Notes under the pieces: model-generated
The model's input: the letters and a program-made list of their open reading frames with translations, nothing else
Databases searched by the model: none
Told to the model about the DNA's origin: nothing
Shown: positions 4,375-57,876 of the stretch, in pieces
Layout of the letters: the number at the start of each line of letters is the position of its first letter
Position numbering within the stretch: the stretch's first letter is position 1
NCBI GenBank assembly: GCA_963681505.1
Contig: OY811987.1
Coordinates: 2,666,124-2,730,123 of the forward strand
Length of the DNA stretch: 64,000 nt
DNA from: Eunapius fragilis
Lineage: Eukaryota; Porifera; Demospongiae; Spongillida; Spongillidae
Reading direction: 5' to 3'
Position numbers and translations under genes: made by a program

Positions 4375-7243
4375 GGTCAGTTGTTCTCTGGTGGAGACCA
4401 CAGAGTGTATCTCCTCGGCAATCCAGTAAGTGATGATATCATGCGGGAGAGAGGGAGGGAGGGATGGGGAGGGAAGGAGGAACCTGTACCCATGCCATGT
4501 GCGTGTATGTGGTATGTGGTGGTCTTTTCCCAATAGCTCTACATGTGTGTACATATATTCATATCATCAAGGTCCATTGGTTACCTGGCTGAAGGGTTAT
4601 CTATTGTTCCTGGATACCTTTGACAATTCAGGGAAATTGGTTTGTGTTTCTTCATTGAGTTAAGGAATCATTCCCTTGCACTCCCACATTACTGCCACTT
4701 GGCAATTAGCCTATTTCGAAGCCATTGTTTACCTTCTGTCACCATACCCTTCTGTTTTGTATGGCTTCACCAGGTATACATTGTTTGCATGTTTTAGGAC
4801 TCCCCAAGGTTCATGCCTCATATCTAACACCCCATGATCCACACCTAACACCCCAAGGTTCATACATGTATCGAACACCCTAAGGTCCACACCTAACACC
4901 CCAAGGTTCATATCTAACACCCCATGGTCCACACCTTACACCCCAAGGTTCATATCTAACACCCCAAGGTTCATATCTAACACCCCAAGGTTCATATCTA
5001 ACACCCCAAGGTTCATATCTAACACCCCAAGGTCCACACCTTAGTCTCCCATACATGTACATGTACATGGGGTGGTCTGCCATACAGCCACTATGTAACT
5101 ATGGTATACTGACTTGCCTGGTCACCAGATTGCATGTGGTCTGAACTGCTTTAGAACAGGGAAGGTTTCACCTGGTAATGTTTTCAGAGTATATCCTTGA
5201 GTGCTTTGAAGCCTTGGTGGTCTGTAGTGTGTTCAATGGCTTTTGTTGGTACATGACCAGTTTTAGTCACAGCACTGATTATTGGTATGAATGGATAGGA
5301 GGCAGTGGAGGAAATGGAGGGGATGGTGGGGGAGGAAGTGGAGGGGATGGTGGGGGGGAAGGGAGGGGTTGGTGGGGGAGGAAGAGGAGGGGATGGTGGG
5401 GGAGGGAGAGGAGGAATAGTAGGGAGGGAGAAGTGGTGATGGGGAGGGGGAGGTGGGGATGGGGAGAGAGCTGGTGATAGGGGAGGAAGAGGAGGGAAGA
5501 AGAGGTGGGGAGGGAGAGGTGGTGATAGGGGAGGGAGAGGGGTGATGGGGAGGGAGAGGTGGTGATGGGGGAACTATTGTGTGATCTCACTGATACAACC
5601 TCCTCTCCCTCCCCATCCCCTCCTCTCCCTCCCCTCCTCTTGTCTACTACATGTATTGTCTATACCCTTCCCCCCCCCCCCCCCCCCCCCCCCACCCACC
5701 CCCAGCTCATCTTCTGGGGAGGTGACGCCCTCTTGTTGCTTTTCTCTGTCGTGGTAGTGATCCGCCTGGTAGCAGCACAAAGACGTGTGAACTGTGGCTG
5801 GATGAGAGGTACTTCCCCCTCCTCACCGCTCCCCTCCCCTCCCCCTCCCAACTCCTAAAAACAGTGGGTGTAGTACTTGATCAACCATGTACAGAAAGAA
5901 GACATGTGGGGCTGGGGAGGAGGAAGAGTGATAGTATAGATGGTCCAGTCTGATCAGCTGCAATGGTGTGGTCCAGTCTGACCAGCTGCAGTGGTGTGGT
6001 CCAGTCTGACCAGCTGCAGTGGTGTGGTCTAGTCTGACCAGCTGCAGTGGTGTGGTCCAGTCTGACCAGCTGCAGTGGTGTGGTCCAGTCTGACCAGCTG
6101 CAGTGGTGTGGTCCAGTCTGACCAGCTGCAGTGGTGTGGTCCAGTCTGACCAGCTGCAGTGGTGTGGTCCAGTCTGACCAGCTGCAGTGGTGTGGTCCAG
6201 TCTGACCAGCTGCAGTGGTATGGTCCAGTCTTACCAGCTGCAGTGGTGTGGTCCAGTCTGACCAGCTGCAGTGGTATGGTCCAGTCTTACCAGCTGCAGT
6301 GGTGTATTCTCTCCATTTTTGAGGTTCCTTGTGGAGGAGGGAGCGGGTGAAGGGAGGAGGGTGAGGGAGGAGTGAGAGGGTGGAGGAGGAGGGAGAGGGT
6401 AAAGGGGAGAGGGAAGTGAGAGGTGTGGAGGTAAGAGGCTGGTGGGGGGAGGGGCTAAGTGGTTTGATCTATCCTCTCTTACTGAGCATCCCAACACAAC
6501 TTGTATGGTTTCACACGATGACTTTACTGCAGTTATTTAACTAATGGCATCAAGTATGTTACCACACACCCCTCCCTCCTCCTCTGTGCATCAAGTATGT
6601 TACCCCACCCCCTCCCTCCTCCTCTGTGCATCAAGTATGTTACCCCACCCCCCTCCCTCCTCTGTGCATCAAGTATGTTACCCCACCCCCTCCCTCCTCC
6701 TCTGTGCATCAAGTATGTTACCCCACCCCCCTCCCTCCTCCTCTGTGCATCAAGTATGTTACCCCACCCCCCTCCCTCCTCCTCTGTGTATATTGTGTAC
6801 ATCTTAGTGGTTGTCCAATTGAGCCATTAGAGGCCTCTGTCATGTGCCTCTGTCATGTGCTATGTACACATTAGTGGTCTTTTTAGAACATTAATTGTTG
6901 TAATAAAAGACAATGGTGGCAGCCATAAAGGTGTAGTTAGCACAGCAAATGGTTACATCTTTGGTTGTAAGTGACCCTGTTGCAAGGAAGCCTCTGTTGA
7001 GCGTTCTCGTCCCCCCTCTACCCTCCACCACTACCCCTATTCCCCCTCCTCCACCCTCCCTATTCCCCCTCCTTCTCCACCTCCTCCTCAGGTGCTCTGG
7101 ACCAGACGGTGGGGGCAGGTTGTTGGCTGGTACTTGGATGGCTTCTGCACTATGTCCCTTTCTACCTGATGGGAAGGGTCTTGTACTTCCATCACTACTT
7201 CCCTGCCCTCATGTTCTGCTGCATGCTGGCTGGTGAGTATGTG

Positions 7244-30358: not shown

Positions 30359-33300
30359 ATGGCGGAAAAGGTACTTGCTTCCTGCTCTCCCAGCAGGCAC
30401 AGTCGTGCTGTATTCACCCGTTTCCTCACTACCAGCCTGTTCTGCACTCTTATTTCAGAAGCTCTTGCTCGTGGCGAGTGCGCATCGGTAAGTTCATATA
30501 TGCACACCTACGTTTGGACGCGTATAGTAACTAATCTTATCGGCGATGGGAAACGCCCTTCACGTATTTACTAACATGTCTTTCAATGTTGCAGTTTTAG
30601 CGATGAAGGGGATTGAGTACGCGTACAGAGTGGTTAACCTCGTGAGCAACCATCATGTTAGTGCGATCCGCGCATGGCGCACGTGCTGTTAAGCGTCTGC
30701 TGCCGCCACCCACACGGTTTAGCTGGAGGACGCCTACGTGTCCCTGAATCCTCAATGTGTGGTACCCACGTTGGAGATCGACGGCCAAGTAATGACCCAA
30801 TCCGTAAGTTAACCCCTCGGCTCTGCGTCGGGAACGGGGACGAGGGTCCACACTGATCTGTTTGATGTCTTTGGTGTATTAACCCTGTCAACATTTTTGC
30901 AGCTAGCGATAATAGAATATCTTGATGAGACCAAAGGACCTCCTTATCTCCTCCCCAGGGATGACCCAGTCTTGAGACAGAAGGTAATTTCCATTGTCTA
31001 CCAGCCCACACATACCTTAATTAATCACACACTCCTACATCTACTAAAAACAGTTACTGGGAAGTGACATCAGTGGTCCTGGTAGTGTGTATATGAATTT
31101 GTATGGTGGGTGCAGTGTGATGAATGGCTTGTACATGTATCCATCTCTTGTAAGGTGTGTACCCACAGATTTCTTACTGGTGACATATATATATACAACT
31201 GTTACATTTGGAAAGCCCAGATGTGTCATTATACATGTGCTCCTTTGTTAAAACATCACATGCACACCAAGGTTACACACAACCCAGTAGACCCACACAT
31301 ACACACTCACGCAATCACATGTAGGTACAAGTGCTGTGTTATCAGTGCCGATCCACCCATGCCTGTAGGTGCGTGCAGTTGCCAATGTAATTGCTTGTGA
31401 CATCCAGCCAATTCAAGTGAGTTGCTGTGTGCTTGTGTGTAGATGTGGATATGTGTACATGTGCATGTGTTGATGAGGATATGTGTTGATGAGAGTATGT
31501 GTGCCTGAAAAGCCCCTTTCAAAATAGTCACAGTAAAAACTTCAGTGATAACATTGGATGTGGTGGGGGGTATAAACATTGGAGGGTGGGAGGGTACTAG
31601 TCTACATGCAATGCACTATCCAGGCTCACATTATGATGGTCTGGCTTTGTCTCGTACCCAGACGCAGATTCCCTACAGCTGCGGATGGATTACATCACCA
31701 CTACATGGAAAGTGGACCTAGTGGTGATGTAATCCATCCACAGCTGTAGGGAATCTGGGTCTGGGTACGAGACTAGGTCTGGCTGTCTGGTTAGTACTAA
31801 AGTCTGCGACACCATCGAGGAAGTAAAAATTATGCATTCTTTCAAAGGTGTCTTTGTTGTCTAAATAATAGGTTAGACGTATTATTTTCCGCAGACCATC
31901 TCGTATTAAAATTCAGTGAGTTAAATACTAATGAGTGAGACTATTATTGACGATAATTAACAAGTAGCGCGTGTGGTCACTAATGAAATTCACATGAAAA
32001 CACTTCGAAATGTTTACATAACTCAAACGAATAAGTGTGAATGTATTACATTTCGTCCGCAAGAGTCATATACAAAGGGGCCTCTTGGAGCAAGAACAAA
32101 TAAAGGTACATGGAGCGGCCCTTATCTAACACTAAGCAAACTATGGTTCTGAACAGTTATTTTAGCGAGAACTGTTAAAGGTGGCGCCAGTAATGAGGCT
32201 AAAAAGTAAGGAATGCATTCTTGAAAATCAAACAGACAGTGTAAAAGCAGAAGATGAGATATTGTATATTTAGAGGTATCAATACATGTAGAATCAAAAT
32301 ATTATTCTTTATTTTGGATGCGGTACAAAATAATGGTCGAATTGAATAAATATTTTAAAAGTACCCCCTGTTAACTTGGAAATTTTTGACTAATTGTTAA
32401 GCTGCACAAGGTTTATTTTTATAGTCAACATAGCTATACATTGTGGTATTGTGGGCATGAATTTAATATTTTCATTAAGAAGCCATTTACATCCTGGATG
32501 GTGTCACTGACTTTAATGCCTCAGCATAGTACAGAACTTCATCTCAGAGGTCATCCAGAGAACCAGGAAGGAGGAGGTGTGGTCCTCACCAGGGGACTTC
32601 ATGCAGAGCAAGTTCTGCACGGCTAAGCTGAACCTCGCCGGAAATTCTTTTAATAATGCCACCACCTATAACCTCACTTGATTTTTTTTTTGTGAGGCCA
32701 CTTGTCATTTGCAACCAATCCTGACCCACTAAACTTACCCTCCTTTCCTGGTCTTGGTAACTTATTCCATTTACCTTTATATATCTTCCAAAGTGACTTT
32801 TGAATGTCTTGTCTAGTAGATGTGTCCATTGATGAAAGGCACAACATCACCACACCTCTCCTTTATGCCTGTGCTTTCTGTTCAGTTTGTCTATTGTCTC
32901 TTCAGACAAGGTGTTTAATTAATCCCATGCAACTTGAGGACTTGGTACTTCCAACGTCCGTGGTCTTTAACCCCTTGCACCATTTCTCTTGGACCACCTC
33001 CCATGCCATGGCCAATTTGTACTGCCTTATAAGTCATAGTCAGTTTGGTTAGTATAGCCTCCTTTGAAGTATTCTTGGTGTGTACACTTACCTGTATGCA
33101 TGTACTCCAATACTGCCTCCCCATTGCTGCCTTGGTTGTGCTGGATGTTCCAAAATGGCCAGACACTTTGGCTCAAAGAGTACTAGCCAAGTGGTCCCTG
33201 TGGGGACATCTCTAGCCAAGTGGTCCCTGTGGGGACATCTCTAGCCAAGTGGTCCCTGTGGGGACATCTCTAGCCAAGTGGTCCCTGTGGGGACATCTCT

Positions 33301-34871
33301 AGCCAAGTGGTCCCTGTGGGGACATCTCTAGCCAAGTGGTCCCTGTGGGGACATCTCTAGCCAAGTGGTCCCTGTGGGGACATCTCTAGCCAAGTGGTCC
33401 CTGTGGGGACATCTCTAGCCAAGTGGTCCTTTTGTGCTGTGATGAAGTATCTCCTAGGCAAGAAATACCTCAGGACTGCTGCCATTCATGTTCAGTAGTA
33501 CTGCTACTGGGTATGCAATTCCTATCACTTCTTGCAGTCGATATTTTGCCAGATGGTGCCATTACCACCCTTGGTTACCAGTGCAAAATACTGACATGGG
33601 GATTTGCAGCATCACAGTACACGTGCAGCATACCCAGGAATACATAGTTCACCTCTTGTGCTGGTGTGCATATCAGCAACAATGCAGAGTTGATATCAGG
33701 TGAGAGATCACTTGATCATGTTTCTCTTAACAGAACCTGAAAGTCCTTAAGTATGTTGGTGAGGACAAGAAGGCAGAGTGGGCCAGATACTGGATTGAGA
33801 GGGGCCTTCAAGGTCAGTGGGCACTGGATAGAGAGGGGCCTTCAAGGTCAGTGGGCACTGGATAGAGAGGGGCCTTCAAGGTCAGTGGGCACTGGATAGA
33901 GAGGGGGCCTTCAAGGTCAGTGGGTACTGGATAGAGAGGGGCCTTCAAGGTCAGTGGGTACTGGATAGAGAGGGGCCTTCAAGGTCAGTGGGTACTGGAT
34001 AGAGAGGGGCCTTCAAGGTCAGTAGGTACTGGATAGAGAGGGGCCTTCAAGATCAGTGGGTACTGGATAGAGAGGGGCCTTCATGGTCAGTGGGTACTGG
34101 ATAGAGAGGGGCCTTCAAGGTCAGTGGGTACTGGATAGAGAGGGGCCTTCATGGTCAGTGGGTACTGGATAGAGAGGGGCCTTCAAGGTCAGTGGGTACT
34201 GGATAGAGAGGGGCCTTCAAGGTCAGTGGGTACTGGATAGAGAGGGGCCTTCATGGTCAGTGGGTACTGGATAGAGAGGGGCCTTCAAGGTCAGTGGGTA
34301 CTGGATAGAGAGGGGCCTTCAAGGTCAGTGGGTACTGGATAGAGAGGGGCCTTCATGGTCAGTGGGTACTGGATAGAGAGGGGCCTTCATGGTCAGTGGG
34401 TACTGGATAGAGAGGGGCCTTCATGGTCAGTGGGTACTGGATAGAGAGGGGCCTTCAAGGTCAGTGGGTACTGGATAGAGAGGGGCCTTCATGGTCAGTG
34501 GGTACTGGATAGAGAGGGGACGTCAAAGTCAGTGGGTACTGGATAGAGAGGGGCCTTCAAGGTCAGTGGGTACTGGATAGAGAGGGGCCTTAGAATTTGA
34601 TGAATTAGGACAAAAAAAAAACTGAAGTGTAATTATGGAATCATCTACGTAACATGGCACACATTTCATTCATACCATGTTTTCACATGTGCACACAAAT
34701 GTAGGTCTAGAGAAACTGCTTGTTAAGACGGCTGGAAAGTACTCTGTGGGAGATGAGGTGGGTGTGGCTTAATGCTGGCAGCACAAACTAATAACTTGCT
34801 ATCATCTCAAACGTTTTGAAGGTTACATTGGCAGATGTGTGTCTTGTGCCACAGATGTACAACGCTGTGCG

Positions 34872-34907
<36 letters not shown>

Positions 34908-35313
34908 GCAGTATGTGTGTGTGCGGTGTGTGTGTATGTATGTGTGTGTGTGTGCGGTATGTGTGTGTGTGGTGTGTGTGTGTGTGCGGTGTGTGTGTAT
35001 GTGCAGTATGTGTGTGTGTGGTGTGTGCGGTATGAGTGTGTAGTGTGTGTGTGTGTGTGTGCAGTGTGTGTATGTGTGTGTGGTATGAGTGTGGTGTGTG
35101 TGTGTATGTGTGTGGTATGAGTGTGTGTGGTGTGTGGTGTGTGTGTGTGTATTACCCTCTATATTCTTTGCTCGTGTGGTCCACAGGTTCAAGGTGGACT
35201 TAACCCCATTCCCGACCATCAATCGTATCACTGCAGCTCTGAAGGAGTTAAAGGCTTTCCAGGTGTCAGCCCCCTCAGAACAGCCTGATTGCCCGCCTGA
35301 ACTGAAAAACTAG
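30359..35313 (+). CDS. GSTZ1: Maleylacetoacetate isomerase / glutathione S-transferase zeta, complete, 10 exons
   Basis: Glutathione-dependent isomerisation of maleylacetoacetate to fumarylacetoacetate, the next-to-last step of Tyr/Phe breakdown, in cytosol. Exons: 30359-30370, 30436-30487, 30595-30656, 30723-30803, 30903-30983, 31369-31416, 33734-33812, 34705-34757, 34822-34871, 35187-35313. All borders are GT-AG and all phases match, giving 214 aa (human 216). Key blocks: MAEK|PVLHSYFRSSCSWRVRI with the catalytic SSCSWR motif, MKGIEYAYRVVNL, VVPTLEIDG, QS|LAIIEYLDET (glutathione-contacting Gln-Ser), VGDEVTLADVCLVPQ, FKVDLTPFPTI. Exon 1 is only 12 bases. A longer frame starting at the same ATG and running into intron 1 is not the gene. 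Intron 7 begins with a 34-bp array made from the exon-7 end and its donor. Intron 6 holds a small foldback and a 29-bp minisatellite. The promoter side is composite element copy 4. Confidence 0.95.
31647..31775. mobile_element. Small Mutator-like foldback (MITE) with 9-bp target duplication
   Basis: 129-bp near-perfect inverted repeat with ends TTGTCTCGTACCCAGAC and GTCTGGGTACGAGACTA. Flanked by the perfect 9-bp direct repeat GGTCTGGCT at 31638-31646 and 31776-31784. A second copy is at 42631-42747. The 9-bp duplication points to Mutator-like (MULE) mobilisation. No coding capacity. Confidence 0.85.
33179..33427. repeat. Minisatellite, 29 bp unit
   Basis: Eight to nine almost identical units of AGCCAAGTGGTCCCTGTGGG plus GACATCTCT, in GSTZ1 intron 6. 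Near-identity suggests recent expansion. Confidence 0.93.
33790..34592. repeat. 34-bp minisatellite built from GSTZ1 exon-7 end plus its 5' splice site
   Basis: Each unit reads ACTGGATAGAGAGGGGCC, then TTCAAG or TTCATG, then GTCAGTGGGT. The first unit is the real exon end (TGGATTGAGAGGGGCC TTCAAG) with donor GTCAGT at 33813. The last GTCAGT is at about 34562, 22 periods downstream, and nearly all units keep GTCAGT. One unit has an extra G and one has GATCAG. Confidence 0.93.
34872..35153. repeat. (TG)n-rich intron 9 of GSTZ1
   Basis: About 280 bases of TG with GTATG and GCGG breaks starting directly at the donor GTATGTG at 34872. The frames across it on both strands are by-products. Confidence 0.9.
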
Positions 35314-36027: not shown

Positions 36028-40457
<4,430 letters not shown>

Positions 40458-55457: not shown

Positions 55458-57876
55458 AGTAAATAAAAACATTCTCTAACGAGAGAGTTGTTGGTATATA
55501 GGATTGACCAATGGTGGTGTAAAAAGCACGGAAACAAGAGTGACAGAAATTTTACTGGAAAATTGAAATAGGCCTATATTTAGCCAGGTATGCACTGTTT
55601 TTTTGTGAGTGTGCTAAATATAGGCCTATTTCAATTTTCCAGTAAAATTTCTGTCACTCTTGTTTCCGTGCTTTTTACACCACCATTGGTCAATCCTATA
55701 TACCAACAACTCTCTCGTTAGAGAATGTTTTTATTTACTTGTTTCATAAGTTTTTTTCAACCTGTCATAACAGTAACGTAGTCAATAATCAATGTAGGAA
55801 GAGTCTTAAATGCAATAACAAATAACTTTAATAATAAAAATTATAATTGTATGAATTTGTGGTATTAATTATTAATTGTCCTCGTCCGCGCCCTCGTCTC
55901 CTGCGGGGACGTCCTCCTCCCTGACCTCCCCGCCATGCTGAGTTGGGCCATGGTGGCAGTGGCCATGCAGGCCAGGGAGGGAGCACAGGCGGCGGTGGTA
56001 CCAGCGGGAGCGCAGCTGGTGGTGGTGGCGGCGGGGGTATTGCTGCTGGTGGTGGTGGGGCAGTGGGGCTTCTCATGGGGGAGTGAAGGGGAGAGGAGTC
56101 GGAGGATAAATGTCATCCTCTTCCTCCTCCTCTTCATCCTCCGACCCCTCATTATTAAAAAACCCAATAAGGTCTTCAGCTGCCATCTACATGTACGTGA
56201 CAGAGACAGAGAGTATGATTAAACTTTAACCTTTTTCTTTTTAAATGCAAAGTGAATCCACATAGAGTATTTTTAAATTTTTACCTCTTTTTGCAAATTA
56301 AAGTGCACTATAATTCAGCGGGTGCATGAGTGACTTTTATACCTGCAAAGCCTTCACACGAGTGCAGAATGTGCTATACTTCTATTGGTCCAATTCCATC
56401 ACATGTGCTAAAATTTTATTGGTCAAATTTTAAAATACTCCAATCTAAACATGAGGTGTAGCCAACATGCAGTCAAGATGGATAGTGTGGAAACTCAGGA
56501 AGTGAACAACATTTCACCTATACCCTTGCAACTGCAATTATATTCATACAGTTGCAACATACGTTGTACATGTACATGGCTAGACAGATAAGGAAGCCTT
56601 CAAATAAGGAAGCCTTTTTATACATCAGATTAAAACAATAGACACTACTGTACACACAGCTGAGTCACCATGCCATGTGAAGTGAATGGTTTTGTGCAGA
56701 TCCGTGCTGTACATAGTCGGGCGGGCCCTACTACCGCGTTTGGTCAGGTAGTAGGGTGACAAGCCCGACCAAACACCGCCCGACTATGCTGCATGCACAG
56801 CTTTTTAATGTTAATACAACATGCCATAACATACCTTTGGGTGGTATAGTGGTAGTTCTCTGACCCCTGCGGTACCGCGTCCTCTCGGCAGCACGTTTAG
56901 CCAATCGGACAGCAGGGTCATTCCAATACCTACTCCTTTCAGATGCTTTAATGGCAGCTGAATTGTATTTCTGCCTTTTAGCAGCGCGGTTTCCCTCGAG
57001 GTCCTCTTCATATCGCCGCCTTTTAGCAGAACGGTTCTCCTCGAGGTCCTCTTGATATCGCCGCCTTTTAGCAGCACGGTTCTCCTCGAGGTCCTCTTCA
57101 TATCGCCGCCTTTTAGCAGATCGCTTAGATTCGGGATCGACCATGTAGCTGTCGCATGCAGAGGCCTTCTTCTTTTTGGGATTGGCCTTGTAGCTGTCGC
57201 GTGCAAAGGCCTTCATCTTTTCGGGATCGGCCTTGTAGCTGTCGCGTACAGAGGTCTTCTTTTTTCGGGATTGGCCTTGTAGAGCGCTCGGGCTTTAGCT
57301 TTGTTCTCGTCTTGCTTTTGGAGGTATTCCGCTCGTTGCTTAGATCTCTTCTTATGATTACGCGAAGGCATTTTTAGAAAAACAACTTCACTAGCCAAAG
57401 TAACAACTAAACTGCGATAGGAACACCAAATAAATTTAGTGCAGGTTTGAGTGCCAAAAATTATTAATAAAAATCTATTATAGATTATTGAATAGAACTT
57501 GATATATGTGTGTCTATATGACATATAAGGATAACGTGCCGGTAAATTTAGAAGCGATTGGTACTATTCCCGTCCTTCTAAACCGTTCCTAGCTCGAGTT
57601 ATACCTTCCTAAGAAGACGACGACGACGACGATGGAGAATTATTTTAGGACTGGGCACGAGAAACAGGAAATTGTTTGTTTCTCTATAACCTCACCGTTT
57701 TATGACACGGTACCAACGTAGAACTGTAGATCGTTGTGCTCTCATTCCATCGCGATAAAGAGATAAGCGATCCGTTTCTCCGTTGTCCCTCCAGACGCTA
57801 GTGAAGTTTTATTAATGACATTCATCAACCCTCAATCAATCCTATATTGAACCTGCTGCCGCAGGTTCAGATTATT
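55458..57876 (-). mobile_element. Composite foldback element, copy 3 (longest)
   Basis: Foldback 55458-55745 (arms ACAAGTAAATAAAAACATTC and complement, with a GAAATAGGCCTATATTTAGC centre), internal region with a basic-protein gene (next entry), a GAC trinucleotide run at about 57616-57632, the conserved leader, and the terminal hairpin at 57853-57872 (arms GAACCTGC, loop GGCA on the minus strand), followed by ATTATTATACTAG. The only copy with a long coding part. Broken; class unresolved. Confidence 0.68.
55985..57371 (-). pseudogene. Element-borne basic repeat protein, broken
   Basis: Minus strand, start MPSRNHKKRSKQRAEYLQKQ at 57371. Repeats of ALYKANPEKK and DSYKANP type are followed by four tandem KRRRYEEDLEENRAA units, AIKASERSRYWNDPAVRLAK and RTTTIPPK. 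A GTATGT donor at about 56837 and an acceptor TGGCAG at about 56193 would join in phase to AEDLIGFFNNEGSEDEEEEE and DDIYPPTP. The product would be a highly charged protein: basic repeats first, acid- and proline-rich tail last. Such repeats are frequent in sponge gene models, but I cannot name a function. Broken in at least one place. Confidence 0.45.

Follow-up and report, generated by a model that had tools for sequence, protein, structure and literature searches.

The window analysed here, a 64,000-nt stretch of the genome of the sponge Eunapius fragilis (contig 17, bases 2666124–2730123; 219 Mb in 24 contigs), carries on its plus strand a gene for maleylacetoacetate isomerase, GSTZ1, at 30359..35313, with ten coding exons, whose ends were inferred, and a product of 214 aa. 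The exons lie at 30359–30370 (exon 1), 30436–30487 (exon 2), 30595–30656 (exon 3), 30723–30803 (exon 4), 30903–30983 (exon 5), 31369–31416 (exon 6), 33734–33812 (exon 7, NLKVLKYVGEDKKAEWARYWIERGLQ), 34705–34757 (exon 8), 34822–34871 (exon 9) and 35187–35313 (exon 10). We worked with models of 209 and 214 aa that differ solely in the end of exon 3 (30641 versus 30656), and the 214-aa length given in the first-pass annotation was obtained again once this end was set at 30656. The 209-aa model matches NCBIfam TIGR01262 maiA (E 5.1e-77; 258 bits, cut-off 171) and PDB chain 2cz2_A, a maleylacetoacetate isomerase (E 2.4e-69), and solved maleylacetoacetate isomerase / GST zeta structures match it at E about 3e-69. 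These profile and structure matches confirm the initial assignment of the gene as GSTZ1.

A minisatellite across the exon 7–intron 7 boundary

Most of intron 7 (33813–34704, 892 nt, phase 1) is occupied by a minisatellite with a 34-bp unit at 33788..34591 on the plus strand (TRF: 23.6 copies, 96% matches). The array begins 25 nt inside exon 7, the last 25 nt of the exon being its first, coding part, and each unit consists of 25 exon-like and 9 intron-like nucleotides. There are 24 unit starts: 22 full 34-mers, including the exon copy, a unit 4 of 35 nt and a last unit that is broken off before its donor. TRF and the unit-by-unit reading agree with the earlier proposal of a minisatellite built from the end of exon 7 and its donor, and the copying of an exon end together with a splice signal in this intron is real.

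The 22 downstream units share a mean pairwise identity of 96.6%, calculated after removal of the extra G of unit 4. Against the unit consensus, the exon copy has a single silent change, ATT in place of the ATA present in all 22 downstream units; the inner units are homogenised, and the copy at the array edge stands apart by that base. Variation among the downstream units comprises a C at position 1 in three of them, an A-to-T change two bases before the donor common to seven, one unit without GT, one with a G-to-A change after the donor and one with three changes. The A-to-T variant is spread irregularly over units 2–23 (AAAAAAATATAATAATTTATAA), which is the pattern that exchange or slippage among units would give. 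An assembly artefact, by which the repeat number would be inflated or the repeats misplaced, is extremely unlikely: the 804-bp array is short enough for an ordinary long read, the irregular order of the unit variants is unlike that of a looped assembly, and the gene and its exons are intact on both sides.

Two other introns of the gene also contain repeats. A 29-bp × 8.5 array with 100% matches lies in intron 6 (window 33183–33429) and is probably a very recent expansion, and a GT-rich repeat in intron 9 (window 34872–35150) runs from the donor GTATGT almost to the intron end. Elsewhere, a GT-rich array on the minus strand of L021, at about 5701, likewise begins at a likely donor.

Predicted outcome of splicing at each donor

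The true donor of intron 7, AAG/GTCAGT (33813..33818, plus strand; the slash marks the boundary), is followed on the same strand by 22 downstream donor positions at 33847..34567, spaced by 34 nt (35 nt once). The 23 positions read AAG/GTCAGT (14), ATG/GTCAGT (7), AAA/GTCAGT (1) and AAG/ATCAGT (1). GTCAGT is thereby kept at 22 of the 23 positions and at 21 of the 22 downstream ones, as had been claimed for the periods beyond 33813, and the exact 9-mer of the true donor recurs at 13 of the 22.

Only donor 1 leads into exon 8 in the reading frame of the full enzyme, and each of the 22 downstream positions yields a premature stop, which bears out the expectation that the first donor alone gives the enzyme. 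Use of donor 2 adds 34 nt, as stated before, and shifts the frame, so that translation ends in exon 8 at codon 157, 56 nt beyond the normal exon end; the TAG of the next unit, to which this stop had been ascribed, lies beyond donor 2. Donors 3 to 23 take in the array TAG at codon 156, 53 nt beyond the normal exon end. At six of the 22 downstream positions the added length restores the frame, but the TAG intervenes first. These outcomes were derived for donors 3, 4, 12 and 23 with the 214-aa model and for all 22 positions with the model shorter by five codons, with the same outcome. Since reading passes through the 34-bp unit in each of the three frames in turn, a chance stop within the array is likely, and we take it as no sign of design.

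The usual rule of nonsense-mediated decay sets a distance of 50–55 nt. The premature stops lie 81–799 nt upstream of the last exon junction, so all 22 products satisfy this rule, a result that favours a length-dependent damper, in which the added donors would divert splicing to premature stops and GSTZ1 would fall with copy number. The array would then act as an allele that tunes expression or does slight harm, as has been suggested for human CBS. The 13 downstream donors identical to the true one speak for such a damper as well; we nevertheless judge it unlikely on the evidence given below.

Donor strength, accessibility and constraint

With the 5′ end of U1 as partner, the predicted duplex energy is −7.6 kcal/mol at the true donor; its 13 exact copies come to −7.6 or −8.1, the class with T at −2 to −6.1 and the two broken donors to −3.2. 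Across the nine donors of the 209-aa model the predicted energies range from −4.7 to −12.6, among which the intron 7 donor is middling. Local folding predictions give a mean unpaired probability of 0.43 for donor 1 and 0.37–0.44 for the others. For the entire 9-mer to be open, the predicted probability is 0.020 at donor 1, 0.0004 at donor 2, 0.0003 at donor 3 and 0.0045–0.0315 at the remaining 20. Predicted U1 pairing thus fails to set the first donor apart, and predicted structure may help donor 1 against its two nearest rivals, donors 2 and 3. We found no predicted fold in which donor 1 would be the only one exposed: donors 2 and 3 come out as less accessible than donor 1, and donors 4 to 23 mostly do not. 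With U1 pairing equal and folding separating only donors 2 and 3, the choice of donor would depend mainly on upstream exon sequence, position or transcription order.

The donor has a C at +3, which is off the usual consensus, and there are ideas of shielding and of enhancement by U1. The 22 downstream U1-like sites could be helpers that raise U1 at a middling donor or shield the intron from early polyadenylation. The C at +3, the middling predicted pairing of −7.6 and the G-rich sequence of the unit after the donor are consistent with this proposal; the corresponding intron of a GSTZ paralog, described below, manages without an array, and we regard helper donors as very doubtful.

Sequence variation within the array gives no indication that the donors are preserved. 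Three of the seven variable unit columns fall inside the donor 9-mer (9 of 34 positions), against 1.9 expected by length in this small sample, a count that omits the exon copy and the one-base insertion. With only seven columns there is no depletion of changes in the 9-mer, and the absence of any sign of constraint argues against a damper. The base at −2 is T in seven units, and a change at −1 or +1 breaks two others. These sites could be read as the result of selection weakening the downstream donors; the common −2 T looks like the spread of one variant. A crude test found no acceptors inside the array able to excise pieces of it, but the true acceptor fails the same test (5 of 12 pyrimidines), which makes it a weak one.

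A paralog with the intron and without the array

A second GSTZ gene (L009, contig 17:2638001–2647900) lies on the opposite, minus strand about 20–27 kb before the window. The homolog of exon 7 ends in CCAAG and that of exon 8 begins with GTCTAG, which is the same phase-1 junction, and the last exon shows 58.5% protein identity, so the paralog is diverged. The 34-bp array is absent from its matching intron, which opens with a GT run (a microsatellite). Because the paralog has the same phase-1 intron, the intron predates the split of the two genes. As judged from these two sequences, the intron came first and the array later, and the array would be private to the GSTZ1 gene of the window; possibly the paralog once had an array and lost it. 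A paralog without the array also weighs against the damper.

The paralog bears directly on how the intron arose. New introns can come from tandem duplication, as published (PMC4974935), and the minisatellites of amphioxus discussed below have been proposed as raw material for it (PMC3087553); intron 7 itself might have originated when an exon stretch with AGGT was duplicated in tandem. The paralog, with its intron at the same place and in the same phase and without the array, shows the intron to be the older and already contradicts this origin, to which we give next to no credence. Intron gain by tandem duplication also predicts that relatives lack the intron, which the paralog has. A search of the genome with a 30-base piece of the unit, allowing up to two mismatches, gave at least 21 matches, all within this array including the exon copy. 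An introner or other dispersed element was rejected, as none of the genome matches listed for this piece (at least 21) falls outside the array.

Minisatellites and donor-spanning arrays in the genome

We sampled the genome with 20 pieces of 10 kb, one from each of contigs 1–20, always at 1.5 Mb and chosen blind; in L010–L014 the masked bases number 4411 in L010 and none in the other four. Tandem repeats cover 14.4% of this 200-kb sample and minisatellites (period ≥10) 12.2%, with 62 arrays of at least three copies. To these pieces we added the window and L009, which gave 96 array clusters, and screened for donor-spanning arrays. A pass required at least three donor-like sites and, in one frame or more, an open unique flank of 36 nt; 17 arrays with 37 ORFs passed. 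Ten of the 37 ORFs, chosen by eye, were queried against Pfam, together with 10 of 245 array-edge ORFs, likewise chosen by eye among the ORFs listed after filtering for low complexity. Four of the 20 queried ORFs fit families clearly or fairly, above cut-offs (TFIIS three times, PF03619 once), and an ABC_membrane match fell below the Pfam cut-off. GSTZ1 exon 7 itself has no Pfam match, so the screen is weak and the two homology-supported cases, GSTZ1 and TFIIS, are a lower bound. TFIIS was the only case found unprompted, one against 62 minisatellite arrays in the sample; naive scaling of this one event to genome size puts the number of cases roughly at a thousand, within a range that spans two orders of magnitude.

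The TFIIS array (L018 7631–7805; contig 9:1500001–1510000) consists of six perfect copies of a 28-bp unit and begins 20 nt inside an exon that ends NCSYTQ/gtgatg. All six copies carry CAG/GTGATG, and from donors 2–6 translation runs into a stop at the sixth codon beyond the exon end. The gene was identified by matches to TFIIS_M (1.9e-19) and Zn_ribbon_TFIIS (1e-14). A TFIIS paralog about 5.7 kb upstream has no donor-spanning array; on our reading of its sequence, an intron interrupts it at the corresponding position and contains another, different array, which does not extend across the donor. The GSTZ1 and TFIIS cases look alike: in each the intron is old, and one of the two paralogs has a recent array at the boundary. 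That an unrelated gene shows the same arrangement, in a genome so rich in minisatellites, favours a general mutational process and speaks against a damper as a conserved function.

Several further arrays were recorded. A pyrimidine-rich 25-bp × 31 minisatellite (window 39294–40075) stops 22 nt short of a likely acceptor, that of an exon at 40098 whose open frame matches PF03619 Solute_trans_a (E 1.1e-5), and occupies the place where the polypyrimidine tract would be. On the minus strand of L013 a pyrimidine-rich 23-bp × 17 array (5397–5792) nearly reaches the likely acceptor of an ABC-transporter exon (PF00664, E 3e-5, below cut-off). Two neighbouring 45-bp arrays with KRRRYEEDLEENRAA-like units lie in open frames on the minus strand of the window (56973–57282), and another 45-bp array in an open frame lies at L015 8527–8677. 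On contig 24, COX1 stays open when TGA, which occurs nine times, is read as tryptophan, a trait that, taken with the protein's appearance, points to a sponge. The nuclear contigs (contig 9:9625139–9675257 and other places) hold 11 COX1-like matches, of which five are interrupted by TAA or TAG, and at least those with stops are probable nuclear copies of mitochondrial DNA.

Discussion

Minisatellites across exon–intron boundaries have been described in amphioxus as ‘mirages’, in Adh3, the globin genes BflGb6 and BflGb9, TnC and PGBD5 (PMC3087553; PMC3902484). As reported there, AG/GT signals are possible in many of their units, the arrays are homogenised internally with the cluster edge apart, and regular splicing is undisturbed (PMC3087553; PMC3902484); length instability is another trait of the kind. 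The GSTZ1 array matches them in its anatomy: the repeat lies over the boundary with the edge copy as the real boundary, splice signals are present in many units (21 of 22 downstream), and the inner units are homogenised to the exclusion of the edge (96.6%; one-base difference). The two differ in dimensions and position, with 23.6 copies of 34 bp at the donor in GSTZ1 and, as described, 3 and 6 copies of 150–160 bp at the acceptor in BflGb6, and the PGBD5 duplications of amphioxus are described as imperfect. The mirages also belong to another lineage and other genes, and the GSTZ1 array is known from the DNA of one haplotype. In the GSTZ paralog, a 21-bp × 48 array (L009 2473–3489) begins close to the exon 8 donor; its reading as a decayed mirage is not supported, as 312 of 2000 shuffles score equally well.

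The human CBS VNTR, c.1444_1467+7(16_21), has a 31-bp unit of 24 exon and 7 intron nucleotides in 16–21 copies, a length that varies between people (PMC2630376), as compared with 25 + 9 nt and 23.6 copies in GSTZ1. In both, the unit joins an exon end to an intron start and is present in around 20 copies. Gene and lineage are unrelated, and the likeness is therefore convergent. Expansion of boundary minisatellites with units of about 30 bp has also been described for variable internal tandem repeats in human duplicated genes (PMC2812944). Those repeats are tied, in that account, to new introns and primate segmental duplications, with a mean of 4 copies; in GSTZ1, unlike there, the array arose later than the intron. 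Human donors that stand in tandem, 4 nt apart, compete as the GSTZ1 donors would, and their alternative use is described as often giving out-of-frame, decay-prone RNA (PMC2423196), but they are overlapping pairs and form no repeat array. Among the literature matches listed, none is a sponge example of a boundary-spanning minisatellite, which is no proof of absence. By its anatomy, as far as sequence can tell, the GSTZ1 array belongs to the mirage / CBS VNTR kind, which is known but seldom reported.

We consider it probable, if well short of secure, that the array is a young mirage-type minisatellite whose host intron is spliced mainly from the first donor, with the leak discarded and the array nearly neutral. 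In this genome, where minisatellites abound and grow easily, a segment reaching from the last bases of exon 7 into intron 7 would have been duplicated in tandem and then enlarged by unequal exchange or slippage. Selection on the protein would hold the first copy as the true exon end, and later copies would become intron with copies of the donor. Splicing would go mostly via the first donor, because it is the donor that transcription reaches first beyond the intron-6 acceptor and because the resulting exon is the shortest (79 nt, with at least 113 nt for any other); its use is also assumed because no other donor gives the enzyme. Leak to later donors would produce RNAs with premature stops, and as these would be discarded, the array would be nearly neutral. 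It is probably tolerated and not regulatory.

In experiments with duplicated strong donors the intron-proximal one is reportedly favoured, which here would be the last donor, and this counts against first-donor use. Among the rivals of the neutral reading, the damper carries the most weight. A review associates higher copy number of the CBS exon 13/intron 13 VNTR with lower CBS activity (PMC5188458), which favours a damper and means that neutrality may be wrong; the amphioxus mirages, reported to splice normally, argue the other way (PMC3087553; PMC3902484). The stronger proposition, that donor-spanning minisatellites are widespread in this genome and act as length-dependent splicing rheostats, setting the output of housekeeping genes such as GSTZ1 and TFIIS differently from one individual to the next, appears very unlikely.

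Two genes of one genome, GSTZ1 and TFIIS, have such an array, which suggests that minisatellite growth regularly produces them as a by-product, in lineages other than amphioxus and humans too, and a genome-wide count of them would be feasible. The GSTZ1 array offers a natural test of the choice made by U1 and the spliceosome, with 14 identical 9-mers in near-identical flanks and the protein obtained only from the first. If repeat number alters GSTZ1 output, arrays of this kind would be a simple and common source of expression variation.
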